Source: Rheinheimera sp. A13L (GTDB taxonomy: Bacteria > Pseudomonadota > Gammaproteobacteria > Enterobacterales > Alteromonadaceae). Taken from it: a stretch of 64,000 nucleotides of DNA. Below are positions 1 to 3,521 of the stretch, one piece after another. Position numbers and translations under genes: made by a program. The notes beneath the pieces are model-generated. The model did not search any database, was not told the DNA's origin, and worked only from the letters and a program-made list of their open reading frames with translations. The DNA lies in contig NZ_AFHI01000034.1 of assembly GCF_000217935.1 (NCBI RefSeq), forward strand, positions 124,001 through 188,000, in the 5' to 3' direction. Position 1 is the stretch's first letter. Each line of letters starts with the position of its first letter.

Positions 1-220
1 CCTGCTGTAAACCCACCTGATACACCTGCATGACTGTCGAAGTGGAGTTGCTGCCTAACTGCAACGGCAGGACAAAACACAGCAGCAATAAAGGCACCAG
101 ACACCACAAGGCGTATGAGGTGCGGGCTCCAAGCCGCCTTAACAAATAAGGCCGAAGCACCAGCAATGTTAGTAGCATCAACGACAGCGGTAACAGTAAT
201 TCCAGCAGCAGGCTAATCAT
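1..220 (-). CDS. M56-family (BlaR1/MecR1-like) membrane sensor peptidase, N-terminal part
   Basis: The reading frame starts at ATG 220-218 and runs off the window after 73 codons. The visible part begins MISLLLELLLPLSLMLL and contains two strongly hydrophobic stretches (about residues 2-24 and 38-56), as in the membrane-embedded N-terminus of M56 peptidases. Its start overlaps the end of the BlaI-type repressor gene by 8 bp, the classic repressor-sensor pairing in which the M56 protein senses an envelope signal and triggers loss of repression. The HExxH catalytic motif lies outside the window, so the assignment rests on the N-terminus and the neighbour. Confidence 0.75.
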   Translation of the reverse strand, partial: MISLLLELLLPLSLMLLTLLVLRPYLLRRLGARTSYALWCLVPLLLLCFVLPLQLGSNSTSTVMQVYQVGLQQ

Positions 221-593
221 TTTTATTCTCCTGCTCCCAACGGGCAATCAACTGTTTCAGCTCAGCTATATCCTGTTCTGCCAGTTTGTCATGCTGTGCA
301 AAACCTGCGACCAAAGGCGCAATACGGCCTGAAAAAACCCGCTGAATAAAGCTTTGGCTTTCTTTTAACTGATAATCGCTTTGTTGCAATACAGGGCTGT
401 ATAAATAAGCTCTGCCGTCTTTTTCAAAAGACACAGCGCCTTTAGTCACCAGGCGGTTCAGCAGAGTTTTGACTGTTTTTTCATGCCACTGGCTGGCATC
501 GGCCAAAGCTTCCACCACCTGATTAGCTGTGGCAGGCGATTGTTGCCACAACACTTTTAAAACTTCCAGCTCGGCCTGACTGATATCTTTCAT
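213..593 (-). CDS. BlaI/MecI/CopY-family transcriptional repressor
   Basis: This 126-residue protein is the usual length for BlaI/MecI repressors. It begins MKDISQAELEVLKVLWQ, and the winged helix (about residues 5-75) includes the typical segment TVKTLLNRLVTKGAVSFEKDGRAYLY. The C-terminal 50 residues would form the dimerisation part that is cleaved or released on signalling. It is co-transcribed with the M56 sensor, and two perfect palindromes lie just upstream of its start, so autoregulation is likely. The signal (a beta-lactam, copper or another envelope stress) cannot be told from this window. Confidence 0.9.
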   Translation of the reverse strand: MKDISQAELEVLKVLWQQSPATANQVVEALADASQWHEKTVKTLLNRLVTKGAVSFEKDGRAYLYSPVLQQSDYQLKESQSFIQRVFSGRIAPLVAGFAQHDKLAEQDIAELKQLIARWEQENKND

Positions 594-735: not shown

Positions 736-855
736 TTAAGGCTGTTGGTCCGACTTTTTATCCTCTGTTGGATAATGATGTAACTCTTCCGGCAGTATAT
801 AGCCGTTAAAACTCAAGAGTTGTACAAAGGTTTGCCAAAACTCACGGCTTAACAT
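736..855 (-). CDS. 39-residue small protein of unknown function
   Basis: A short frame starts at ATG 855-853, with a strong GGAGG Shine-Dalgarno sequence five to six bases upstream. It encodes a 39-residue protein beginning MLSREFWQTFVQLLSFNGYI and ending with a charged tail rich in D, E, K and Q. It lies 43 bp downstream of the flavoprotein gene on the same strand, so it may be the last gene of the MarR-acetyltransferase-flavoprotein operon. It has no signal peptide and no cysteine. I do not recognise the family; the good ribosome-binding site and position are the case for it being real. Confidence 0.55.
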   Translation of the reverse strand: MLSREFWQTFVQLLSFNGYILPEELHHYPTEDKKSDQQP

Positions 856-898
856 AAATACCTCCACTGTGTTGCTATGGCCCTTTAAGTATAGACGC

Positions 899-2266
899 TT
901 AGCCGCAGCAGGCCGCTTTCACCTTGGGTTTTGTGCCACAACTGCTGTCAGCGCAAGTTGCCGAAGCTGTTTCCGCTGTTGTCGCACAACAGGAAGAAGT
1001 AACAGCTGGCACCACAAAGCCAGTGCTGCATACTCCTGTTTCCGGCAACTTCAGCTCAACCCTTTGTGCCGCCTCCATATCACCAGCCAGAGCCGCCACT
1101 ATAGAACGCACTTGCTCATAACCCGTTAGCAATAAGAAGGTTGGAGCTCTGCCATAACTTTTGATGCCTGCACTGTAAAAGTTCGTTTCAGGATGGCTCA
1201 GTTCCAGATAGCCATGGGGCCGCACAGTGCCACAACTATGCTCGTTTGGATCAATCATAGGAGCCAGCGCTACCGGGCTTTGAGTGGCAGGATCCAGCCC
1301 TAAGCGTAGCTCAGACAAGATAGACAAATCCGGCCTGAACCCTGTATTCACGACTAACTGATCAATAGCTGGTAACGTCTGCTGAGCCGACGATAACAAC
1401 AAGCCTTCGGCAGAATCAGCAATACGGCGCAAACGGAATTCAGGGTGCAAGCTAATCAAACCCTGCTTTAACCATTGGCCCACTAATAGTCCCAATGCGC
1501 CTCGCTCTTTTAGCTGGTCGTTGGCACCACCCCCTAAGATTTTATCCACATTAGCGCCGCGGATAGCCCAGTGAATTTGTGTATCCGGATACTGACGTTT
1601 TAAAGCCACCAATTCCTGCAAACTGTTAAAGGCTGAATGACCAGCACCTAAGACTAATACCCGTTGATTGGCATAACGAGTCTGGTCTTTTTGCTGGTTT
1701 ACAATGCCATAAAAAATCTGCGCCTGATGTTTAAGCTCGCCCATAGCAGCTAAACCATGACTGCCTGCCGGGTTAGGGCTCTGGTAAGTGCCAGTGCAGT
1801 CAATGACAGCAGACGCCAGTAACTCCTGCTGGCCATCCGGTGTATCCACTAAAACCACAAAGGGCTGAGCTGTTCTGTCTCTATTTTTCATCAGATCGGT
1901 ATCTAACCGGCTTATACTCAACACTTTATGCGACAAACGTAAAGAAGGCGCAATTTGAGGCAAAGCGGCCAGAGGATCAAGGTACTTTTCTACCAGTTCA
2001 GCACCTGTTGGAAAACCATCCTGATCTGGTTTTTGCCAGCCTTGTTGTATCAGGTAGCCAACACTGGCAGGCTCGGTATTAAAACGCCAGGGCGAAAACA
2101 TTTTGACATGATCCCATTGCCTGATATTGGCAGCCACTTGATCAGCAGCCTCCAGCACTAAAAAGGATAAGCCACGTTGTGCCAGCTGAGCGGCGGCAGC
2201 TAAGCCGACAGGACCTGCGCCTAAGACCACTGCAGGATAAAGCGAAATTAAGTCTTGAGTTTTCAT
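899..2266 (-). CDS. FAD/NAD(P)-dependent oxidoreductase (ArsO-like flavoprotein) with Cys-rich tail
   Basis: This 455-residue flavoprotein resembles flavin-dependent monooxygenases. It has an N-terminal FAD-binding GAGPVG at residues 16-21 and a second dinucleotide-binding GAGHSA near residue 205. The last 43 residues form an unusual tail with seven cysteines (413, 426, 427, 438, 443, 453, 454), including two vicinal CC pairs that suit binding of soft metals or trivalent arsenic. Its ATG overlaps the stop codon of the acetyltransferase gene by 4 bp, indicating translational coupling. Flavoproteins of this type (ArsO) occur in arsenic resistance clusters. The substrate is inferred from context only. 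Confidence 0.75.
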   Translation of the reverse strand: MKTQDLISLYPAVVLGAGPVGLAAAAQLAQRGLSFLVLEAADQVAANIRQWDHVKMFSPWRFNTEPASVGYLIQQGWQKPDQDGFPTGAELVEKYLDPLAALPQIAPSLRLSHKVLSISRLDTDLMKNRDRTAQPFVVLVDTPDGQQELLASAVIDCTGTYQSPNPAGSHGLAAMGELKHQAQIFYGIVNQQKDQTRYANQRVLVLGAGHSAFNSLQELVALKRQYPDTQIHWAIRGANVDKILGGGANDQLKERGALGLLVGQWLKQGLISLHPEFRLRRIADSAEGLLLSSAQQTLPAIDQLVVNTGFRPDLSILSELRLGLDPATQSPVALAPMIDPNEHSCGTVRPHGYLELSHPETNFYSAGIKSYGRAPTFLLLTGYEQVRSIVAALAGDMEAAQRVELKLPETGVCSTGFVVPAVTSSCCATTAETASATCADSSCGTKPKVKAACCG

Positions 2267-2772
2267 TGCTGTTCTCCGTTTTGATTGGTTGGGATCAGGT
2301 ATTCAACAATGGCCACATCCAGCCACTGACCTTTGAGCTGTGCATGTTTTTCATAAATACCCACCTCGCGAAAACCGGCTTTTTTACATAAAGCCCGGCT
2401 GGCCGAATTAAAGGTGAAAATACGGGATAACACTTTCCAGAAACCTTGTTGCTGTGCTTGATGCAGTAAGGCCTGTAGCAGTGGCAAGCCATAGCCTTTG
2501 CCCTGCACTGTGGGGTCAAGGTAGATAGAAAATTCGGCAATACCCCGGTAACAGTCGCGACTGCGGTAGGAGCTCAGAGCTGCAAAGCCAGTGATTCTCC
2601 CTTGCTGTTCCAGCACCAGTACAGGGTACTGATCAAGCTGTTCCAGCCAGCTTTGCAGCTCAGCTTCGGTACGCAGTCGGGTTTCAAAGGTTGCATTGCC
2701 TGAGCCAATGCCCTGATTGTAAATCTGGCAAATCGCCGGAAGATCTGCCTCTTGTAGTAAACGGATCAGCAT
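2263..2772 (-). CDS. GNAT N-acetyltransferase, ArsN1/phosphinothricin acetyltransferase-like
   Basis: The 169-residue product matches the phosphinothricin/arsinothricin acetyltransferase type. It has an acetyl-CoA loop around the segment VQGKGYGLPLLQAL, and the conserved blocks SYRSRDCYRGIAEFSIYLDP, KVLSRIFTFN and GFREVGIYEKH. The family transfers acetyl from acetyl-CoA to the amino group of phosphinothricin or its arsenical analogue. I chose ATG 2772 because AAGGAG lies six bases upstream; an in-frame ATG 18 bases earlier lacks such a site. It sits between a cysteine-rich MarR regulator and a cysteine-tailed flavoprotein, which favours an arsenical substrate over a herbicide. Confidence 0.8.
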   Translation of the reverse strand: MLIRLLQEADLPAICQIYNQGIGSGNATFETRLRTEAELQSWLEQLDQYPVLVLEQQGRITGFAALSSYRSRDCYRGIAEFSIYLDPTVQGKGYGLPLLQALLHQAQQQGFWKVLSRIFTFNSASRALCKKAGFREVGIYEKHAQLKGQWLDVAIVEYLIPTNQNGEQQ

Positions 2773-2840
2773 ACTCAACTCCTTTAGCATCTACTTGCTG
2801 AAACCAACTATTGTCAGTAACAACTAATTAGTTAAAATTT

Positions 2841-3326
2841 TTAGTCTGAACAGGGCCTGACAGCGCAGCTATTCGTGTTTCTTTGCTTCACTTGCGCACT
2901 TAAAGCGCGGATCACTTCAATACTGGCTTGTCGCATTTCCGGACTTAAATGTGCAATCAGTTGCTGCTCCTGCGCTATCAGTTCAGCACGGATTTGCTGA
3001 TACAAAGCCACACCTGTATCAGTCGCAGTTAAGGCCACAGCACGTCTGTCGTCGGTATCGGCAATACGGGTGACATAACCTTTTTTCACCAGGCTATCCA
3101 CTACCCTACTGCTGGTACTTTTATCCAGCAGCATCAGTTCGGCCAATTGCTGCAAGCGTAAAGAGCCATGCTCAGCCAAAAACTCCAGCGCATAACACTG
3201 AGTGACGGACACATCATGACAACAAATCAGATCCCGGTCGCGAAACTGGTATAAACGCACCAATTGATTCACAGCTTCGTATAAAGCCGTTGCATCTTGT
3301 TGCAGTTGCAGATCCTGTTGTGACAT
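2841..3326 (-). CDS. MarR-family regulator with vicinal cysteines
   Basis: This 161-residue winged-helix regulator has the MarR DNA-binding region at about residues 60-100 (LLDKSTSSRVVDSLVKKGYV, then the wing DTDDRRAVAL). It carries Cys35-Cys36 and Cys44 in the helix before the HTH (ICCHDVSVTQC) and two more cysteines near the C-terminus (154 and 159). Such a set is suited to sensing a thiol-reactive ligand such as trivalent arsenic. I used ATG 3326 rather than the TTG one codon earlier. It is the first gene of a leftward operon, and palindromes at its promoter suggest autorepression. Confidence 0.85.
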   Translation of the reverse strand: MSQQDLQLQQDATALYEAVNQLVRLYQFRDRDLICCHDVSVTQCYALEFLAEHGSLRLQQLAELMLLDKSTSSRVVDSLVKKGYVTRIADTDDRRAVALTATDTGVALYQQIRAELIAQEQQLIAHLSPEMRQASIEVIRALSAQVKQRNTNSCAVRPCSD

Positions 3327-3347
3327 CAATCAAAAACTCATTTGTTG

Positions 3348-3414
3348 TTAGTTGCAACTAATATAAAAGCCAATTGGCGAAAGATCAAGCTAAATTTGTT
3401 GTCAGTTGCAACAA
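3348..3414 (-). promoter_or_regulatory. Candidate MarR operators upstream of the cysteine-rich cluster
   Basis: A perfect 14-bp palindrome TTAGTTGCAACTAA occupies 3348-3361. A second site with arms TTGTTG and CAACAA around a 7-bp spacer lies at 3396-3414 and shares the GTTGCAAC core. A related palindrome AACTAATTAGTT lies at 2821-2832, between the regulator and acetyltransferase genes. The placement suits autoregulation by the MarR protein; binding is inferred. Confidence 0.6.
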
Positions 3415-3521
3415 TGTCAGTTGATCTGTAGTTTTATGGTGTTCATCAGGGTTTTATTTATAACGCCACTGGCCTATGCTAGCGTCAACTTATTGCTTTG
3501 ATTGACCAAACGCGAGTGTGT

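Follow-up and report, generated by a model that had tools for sequence, protein, structure and literature searches.

The closest described systems to the locus studied here pair a flavin enzyme, ArsV, with ArsW or ArsK. Methylarsenite is reportedly called an antibiotic in the title of the paper on ArsV and ArsW. The functions of both proteins are described in a review and in citing papers, PMC10080717 among the sources. PMC6465285 describes arsN1 genes in ars operons and arsinothricin as an antibiotic. The locus compared with these systems is a three-gene cassette (marR, arsN1a and a flavoprotein gene) in a 64,000-nt stretch of Rheinheimera sp. A13L DNA (contig NZ_AFHI01000034.1, positions 124,001 to 188,000). 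This stretch is called the window, and coordinates without a prefix refer to it.

We interpreted the cassette as an inducible detoxification unit against organic arsenic, in which the oxidation of trivalent organoarsenicals and the acetylation of arsinothricin would be controlled by MarR. From the sequence comparisons we put the probability of this reading at about 0.7. Detoxification of arsenicals by the cassette is well supported by these comparisons, and ArsV-like oxidation by the flavoprotein is likely. The families, gene order, candidate operators, borders and conservation were obtained by computation; the activities and the inducer are predictions. The features of the cassette are as follows.

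895..3442, no strand assigned: whole cassette (promoter with operators, marR, arsN1a, flavoprotein gene), placed by local alignments and good to a few bases
3396..3414, minus strand: candidate operator copy 2, TTGTTGCAACTGACAACAA
3342..3360, minus strand: candidate operator copy 1, TAGTTGCAACTAACAACAA, overlapping the palindrome TTAGTTGCAACTAA
2841..3329, minus strand: putative MarR-family repressor with the motif ICC-x7-C (TTG at 3329, ATG at 3326)
2808..2826, minus strand: weaker operator-like repeat between marR and arsN1a, TAGTTGTTACTGACAATAG, with 3 mismatches
2263..2772, minus strand: ArsN1 family A N-acetyltransferase (ArsN1a), 169 residues (NF040503; frame open from 2790)
899..2266, minus strand: flavoprotein of the flavin adenine dinucleotide (FAD)/reduced nicotinamide nucleotide (NAD(P)H) type, ArsV-like, 455 residues, one copy in the genome
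902..1048, minus strand: cysteine-rich tail of the flavoprotein, residues 407-455, with an LPETGVC anchor, seven cysteines and two CC pairs

An earlier, sequence-only reading of this DNA had listed four open reading frames (ORFs) with their cysteine counts: the three above and one of 39 residues. The ORFs, all on the minus strand, and the counts were reproduced. So were the overlapping or closely spaced arrangement of the genes (the flavoprotein gene start overlaps the acetyltransferase gene stop by 4 bases), the five cysteines of MarR including a vicinal pair (36 and 37), and the seven cysteines in the last 43 residues of the flavoprotein (413-455). The same three-gene order was kept in the two genus-mates that carry flavoprotein orthologues (G013 and G001). 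This conserved order, together with an excess of synonymous differences in the 39-residue ORF, made the ORFs look like real genes. The acetyltransferase most likely starts at ATG 2772, because AAAGGAG stands just before it and aligned homologues begin there. For MarR, ATG 3326 is a likelier start than the listed TTG one codon earlier.

The acetyltransferase scored 219.4 bits against the NCBIfam ArsN1 family A model NF040503 (cut-off 170), over model positions 1-159 of 159. It remained below the cut-offs for ArsN1b (99.6/210 bits), phosphinothricin acetyltransferase (72.7/300) and ArsN2 (18.6/125). It had earlier been called ArsN1-like, and the score agrees with that call; the name of the family refers to the inactivation of an arsenical antibiotic.

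The flavoprotein family was found among arsenic genes. A core ars gene (arsenate reductase, ACR3, ArsB, ArsA, ArsD, ArsH, ArsJ or arsenite oxidase) was present in 37 of 53 flavoprotein loci, compared with 1 of 17 control regions, similar in size, that surround unrelated flavoprotein genes from the same order. ArsO was dropped from this count because the control flavoproteins matched the ArsO reference; the numbers thereby fell from 39 to 37 of 53 and, in the controls, from 9 to 1 of 17. The 53 loci include near-copies, and with the window's own copy, two near-copies and the broken L055 set aside the count was 34 of 49. A core ars gene or ArsR was found in 45 of the 53, and either of these or ArsN1a in 50. 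A major facilitator superfamily (MFS) protein of the partner kind was encoded in the fetched stretch of 32 of the 53 loci, compared with none of the 17 controls. ArsN1a was also present in 18 of 19 MarR loci. Among the 17 loci of the phylum sample other than the window's own, 16 had a core ars gene; the one that missed, L064 (G141), had MarR and the flavoprotein only. For the three genus carriers, only MarR and ArsN1a were found in the stretches counted.

Plasmids gave examples of the arrangement. A Pseudomonas nitroreducens plasmid carried, in order, a divergent MFS gene, MarR, ArsN1a, the flavoprotein, ArsD, ArsA, TauE/SafE (other strand), ArsC, ArsR, ArsC, ACR3 and ArsH. ArsR, the flavoprotein and MFS lay near one another on Nitrobacter, Priestia, Hydrogenophaga and Rhodococcus plasmids, and a Roseomonas plasmid had the order PadR, flavoprotein, MFS. 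The order in Rhizobium rhizogenes was ArsR, ArsC, ACR3, ArsC, ArsH, ArsR, flavoprotein and ArsK, the last named by record annotation. In Streptomyces sp. FR-008, ArsO and the family flavoprotein were separate genes of one cluster. Another two of the plasmid stretches were without annotation.

Such neighbours would also be expected if the flavoprotein oxidised or bound mainly inorganic As(III) or Sb(III), with ArsN1a as a mere passenger. Many clusters of the family do carry inorganic arsenic genes (ArsC, ACR3, arsenite oxidase), and the title of the ArsV paper reportedly names antimonite as a substrate. A passenger would hardly keep company with MarR in all but one of the MarR loci, nor does the 4-base overlap with the flavoprotein gene in the window suggest one. 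We consider this explanation unlikely.

Full-length matches to the flavoprotein were found in 3 of 22 genomes of the genus: the window's own, G013 (98%) and G001 (75-78%). Two further genomes gave only weak partial matches, and G013 gave a weak second match. At least 5 of 295 genomes of the order sample had a long match and at least 22 of 295 any match at E 0.001; in the phylum sample at least 18 of 398 genomes matched at E 1e-40. Both searches scored the best few candidates per genome. A scan of named genomes gave 25 loci, namely 14 from Pseudomonas, 4 from Streptomyces, 3 from other Actinomycetota, 3 from Bacteroidota and 1 from a metagenome bin, 98% identical. Matches were present in 146 of 72,556 plasmid records. 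In a tree of 50 flavoproteins (midpoint-rooted, for drawing only), the 16 rows labelled MarR were all to one side of a branch supported at 97/96, and the three genus flavoproteins formed a 100/100 group inside that side. This suggested that a single origin of the MarR arrangement is possible. Transposition-type genes adjoin the arsenic clusters L165 and L168: TniQ in Streptomyces sp. FR-008, and TniB with TniQ on both sides in Rhizobium rhizogenes.

The regulator scored above the cut-offs of the MarR models PF12802 (57.7 bits, cut-off 27) and PF01047 (56.8, cut-off 24.6). Its five cysteines are at positions 36, 37, 45, 155 and 160, numbered from the TTG. Cys 36, 37 and 45 were invariant in 15 of 15 aligned rows, and Cys 155 nearly so. 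In the structure model (mean predicted local distance difference test, pLDDT, 82), a short helix (residues 33-38) holds Cys 36 and 37, and Cys 45 is near the start of the next. Taken with the score of the acetyltransferase and the ars genes round the flavoprotein family, these invariant cysteines support the proposal of the sequence-only reading that the genes form an organoarsenical or metalloid unit.

Two 19-bp repeats of the form TTGTTG-N7-CAACAA were found upstream of marR, 54 bp apart. With two mismatches or fewer, at least one such site was present in 16 of 17 marR upstream regions, and two separate sites in 15 of 17. The region without a site was L093, whose start codon is uncertain. 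The 17 regions together gave 44 matches (overlapping frames counted); 200 letter shuffles averaged 0.19 matches, with no more than 2 in any of them. These regions are related and several are near-copies, so the result shows conservation rather than 17 independent cases. Loose matching in the window alone was not significant (7 found vs 6.4 expected, at two mismatches); the case for the operators therefore rests on conservation across loci. We regard the sites as computed candidates for MarR operators in its own promoter. A counterpart of the weaker repeat at 2808..2826 was present, with 2-3 mismatches, in 8 of 8 gaps scanned, a count made without a shuffle control. In Pseudomonas loci with an MFS gene divergent from marR (e.g. 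L036), both sites lay between the two genes, so that the same repressor could govern the exporter.

A wider MarR regulon was rejected: by pattern scan of the three genus genomes, exact operator matches occurred only at the cassette locus. One-mismatch matches occurred at about the frequency seen with the reversed pattern. One such site, TTTGTTGAAAATAACAACAAC, recurred in all three genomes (L125-L127; G001:C12:418448, G000:C70:102207, G013:C23:75925). It overlaps a 76-residue antisense ORF between ORFs of 220 and 469 residues, and no ars-like ORF was seen beside it on inspection by eye.

The cysteines of the flavoprotein were concentrated at its end. From the LPETGVC anchor on, 7 of 49 residues are cysteine, compared with 2 of 406 before it (Fisher p 3.4e-6). 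The tail ends in CCG, and the two cysteines before it form no CXXC. It had been singled out earlier as the most unusual feature; that it is a peculiarity of this protein was not supported. An LPETGVC-like anchor was present in 49 of 50 family members. From the anchor on, 45 of the 50 had at least three cysteines and 44 at least one CC pair; the mean number of cysteines per member was 2.1 before the anchor and 5.3 from it on. The sole row without a recognised anchor was L064, the diverged end of which still holds CC. In an alignment of 27 rows, Cys 413 was invariant and Cys 345 nearly so. The CC pairs are not universal: they are missing from the Priestia row and from the four Streptomyces rows, whose tail is longer and contains only two cysteines. 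The 50-row set left out L035, which shares its contig with L060; L044 and L056, which nearly duplicate L043 and L036; L055, whose gene is split in two; and plasmid matches that were not fetched or were fetched later (L165-L168). By these comparisons the tail is a trait of a widespread flavoprotein family that recurs across phyla.

From these elements we envisage the following mechanism. MarR would hold the promoter through two, perhaps three, of the TTGTTG-N7-CAACAA sites. Binding of a trivalent arsenical to Cys 36, 37 and 45 would then release the repressor. ArsN1a, as its family membership suggests, would acetylate the amino group of arsinothricin. The flavoprotein would act as an ArsV-like FAD/NAD(P)H monooxygenase that converts methylarsenite and similar trivalent arsenicals to a less toxic pentavalent form; we infer the oxidase role because the family is placed beside ArsK-related exporters in ars clusters. 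The tail, with the invariant Cys 413 and the CC pairs, may be an arm that passes the arsenical on: it would catch the trivalent form as a thiolate and free the pentavalent arsenic. In the window the unit has no companion exporter of the usual kind, and it is separate from a conventional arsR-acr3-gap-arsJ unit.

Several observations weigh against this reading. The flavoprotein scored 46.8 bits with the ArsO model NF040505 (cut-off 425), and YpdA matched about equally. On a flavoprotein model of modest confidence, the top Foldseek match was the disulfide reductase YpdA. The name ArsV-like comes from context, and the likeness was set by descriptions of ArsV rather than by an ArsV sequence. ArsW is an MFS protein, and the two partner MFS proteins tested scored 208.1 and 154.3 bits, under the ArsK cut-off of 400 (NF033733). 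In none of the three carriers did a search with a 15-row alignment find an MFS exporter of the partner kind. Three of the 53 loci (L003, L039 and L064) had no ArsR, ArsN1a or core ars gene: L003 had MFS only, and L039 nothing by the ORF-based count, yet an acetyltransferase-like stretch lies just upstream of its flavoprotein gene. For the acetyltransferase, the structure 5jtf and its companions, which we take to be the characterised ArsN1 structure, were a distant match (41 bits). Finally, ArsH of Paracoccus is reported as an organoarsenic reductase in PMC9137774; ars flavoenzymes can thus reduce, which counts against a simple rule that they oxidise.

The family and fold of the flavoprotein did not separate an oxidase from a reductase. 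It passed general Pfam models such as Pyr_redox_3, and among the best 25 matches listed it reached no NCBI family cut-off. The ArsO model, of 346 positions, matched only over residues 12-221. With this score, and with a separate ArsO gene in the same Streptomyces sp. FR-008 cluster, ArsO was rejected as the identity of the flavoprotein. The YpdA model TIGR04018 gave 45.8 bits (cut-off 339.9). The AlphaFold2 model had a mean pLDDT of 71, with residues 409-455 and 316-350 under 50; the low value of the tail fits a flexible arm and proves nothing. Foldseek matches to YpdA, ferredoxin-NADP reductases, thioredoxin reductases and flavin monooxygenases were intermixed, and oxidase and reductase were not told apart by them.

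C-terminal cysteines serve as the substrate or electron outlet in mercuric reductase and in the high-Mr thioredoxin reductase. The flavoprotein could accordingly be pictured as an NAD(P)H-dependent reductase whose own tail dithiols are such an outlet, reducing or recycling arsenic thiol adducts. The sequence and fold matches to YpdA, the fold matches to thioredoxin reductases, the CC pairs with the terminal CCG, and the report on Paracoccus ArsH all speak for it. It is nevertheless improbable, given that the window flavoprotein has no CXXC among its two cysteines before the tail, that the family's clusters often already carry ArsC reductases, and that an MFS partner fits the export of an oxidised or organic product. 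A cassette with no arsenic link is quite implausible. In that reading the acetyltransferase would inactivate amino acids of the phosphinothricin type, the flavoprotein would detoxify some different xenobiotic and MarR would be a general regulator. The nearest solved structures of the acetyltransferase do include proteins named phosphinothricin N-acetyltransferase, and the tested immediate neighbours were not ars genes. Against this, the acetyltransferase clears the ArsN1a cut-off and stays far short of that for phosphinothricin acetyltransferase, and the flavoprotein family has ars neighbours across phyla.

The borders of the cassette were set by comparison with genus-mates that do not carry it. 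In five cassette-free loci (L111, L112, L113, L115 and L116), homology to the window stopped at 3443/3442 and resumed at 894 (4 of 5) or 866 (1 of 5), and 75-105 bp of own sequence took the place of the cassette. The three genes marR, arsN1a and the flavoprotein gene, with their promoter, thus make up a single block of about 2548 bp, which genomes either have entire or lack entirely. The replacement stretch of L111 seems terminator-like by eye, with a short hairpin and then a T run. GC content was tried as a sign of a foreign cassette and gave no mark (0.483 vs 0.466 for the window).

The small gene beside the cassette is outside this block.

736..855, minus strand: 39-residue small-protein gene, a neighbour outside the cassette by genus comparison

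The 39-residue protein had been counted in the cluster by the sequence-only reading. It was rejected as a member, since five genus-mates that lack the cassette have the gene at the same site. A match was obtained in 10 of 22 genomes of the genus, strong in eight of them and weak in two. Of the eight, five (G002, G005, G014, G017 and G019) gave no match to the flavoprotein, and there the 39-residue gene adjoins the same S9-peptidase gene; in the three carriers these two genes are separated by the cassette. Over the first 28 codons, synonymous differences exceeded non-synonymous ones in 6 of 7 orthologues, with one of each in the seventh. The protein, small and conserved with the core FWQTFVQLLSFNGYILP, had no match in Pfam or NCBIfam at E 1. 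By these comparisons the gene is a real resident neighbour of the cassette.

The immediate neighbours of the cassette encode BlaI, the S9 peptidase (Pfam PF00326) and an AFG1-like ATPase; none of those tested was an ars gene. The genes for a BlaI/MecI-type repressor and a BlaR1-like M56 peptidase adjoin the cassette (window 213-593 and L066:8007-9248). The repressor gene is at the same site in G017, and it is not in several other genus-mates.

A second arsenic unit is present in the same genome.

Approximately G000:C38:101442-105782 (L090:7443-11783): arsR, acr3, phosphatase-like gene, gap and arsJ, beyond the window and some 19 kb away from the cassette

Its ACR3, ArsJ and ArsR passed the NCBIfam cut-offs, and the phosphatase-like gene passed Pfam CDKN3. 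The gap gene was identified through its 82% identity to a gene with an ArsJ-associated annotation. None of three short motifs tried was found in the stretch L090. A similar arsR-acr3 unit, whose arsJ was not scored, lies about 20 kb from the cassette in G001. The earlier statement that ArsR, ArsB and ArsC are lacking thus holds for the immediate neighbours and not for arsR in the genome, which was not searched for ArsB or ArsC. An ArsM over the cut-off was present in 0 of 3 carriers (best 77.6 vs 263 bits). With no such ArsM found in the genome, the threat would come from neighbours. No close ArsH was found in the three carriers except a weak match in G001 (1.3e-5), while two control genomes matched; the ArsH and ArsM searches thus revealed no further organoarsenical oxidase in the carriers. 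Neither a single-protein search (run without a control) nor the 15-row alignment found a diverged exporter at another place in the genome; the two control genomes of the alignment search matched, but each had contributed a row to the query.

Short cysteine-rich ORFs were also noticed near family members.

L046:7257-7538, L047:8104-8301 and L048:9106-9297: CC mini-protein ORFs, Bacteroidota
L061:8052-8195: 47-residue ORF between marR and arsN1a in the genus-mate G001, ending in ESCCAAPCCA

The three Bacteroidota ORFs (63-93 residues), each with four CC pairs, are downstream of the flavoprotein gene; the one in L046 overlaps that gene, which leaves its start uncertain. The L047 and L048 proteins matched no Pfam or NCBIfam family at E 0.01, and the 47-residue ORF had no family match in either collection. 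Its first 22 residues weakly match the 39-residue protein (50% identity, E 0.03), and it may be a small protein with an added arsenic-binding end. The short-ORF scan listed many others, mostly plain chance; these four were picked by their place, and the three from Bacteroidota also by mutual likeness. It is conceivable, though we would not bet on it, that CC-pair peptides are a general arsenical-handling module. Flavoprotein tails would capture trivalent organoarsenicals and deliver them to the flavin, free mini-proteins of the same clusters would be arsenical chaperones, and the ICC-x7-C MarR would represent a new class of organoarsenical sensor other than ArsR. The open-access papers searched, which included PMC11719878, PMC9144182, PMC6514093, PMC4585019 and PMC9505733, yielded no account of the cysteine tail, of a MarR sensor of this kind or of CC mini-proteins.

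If the proposed detoxification of organic arsenic is right, the cassette would be a minimal unit aimed at two antibiotic arsenicals, methylarsenite and arsinothricin. The recurrent tail would offer a testable prediction on how a flavin enzyme seizes trivalent and releases pentavalent arsenic. MarR would be a candidate biosensor with mapped candidate operators.

Among known systems, YpdA/Bdr, the bacillithiol disulfide reductase, shares with the flavoprotein a fold with two dinucleotide-binding parts and differs in that the flavoprotein falls far below its cut-off. ArsO is likewise a flavin enzyme of ars clusters with weak similarity to the flavoprotein; it is set apart by the low score and by the cluster of Streptomyces sp. 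FR-008 in which both are encoded. The acetyltransferase belongs with ArsN1 family A by its score, and differs from it in setting, being beside marR and about 19 kb from the arsR-acr3 unit of the genome. Compared with ArsV and its partner ArsW or ArsK, the window's genome has no found exporter of that kind, and MarR stands in place of ArsR. As far as the descriptions of ArsV allow, the setting of the flavoprotein family among ars genes, with an MFS of the partner kind in 32 of 53 loci, resembles the published ArsV-plus-exporter arrangement; in Rhizobium rhizogenes the next gene is annotated ArsK.

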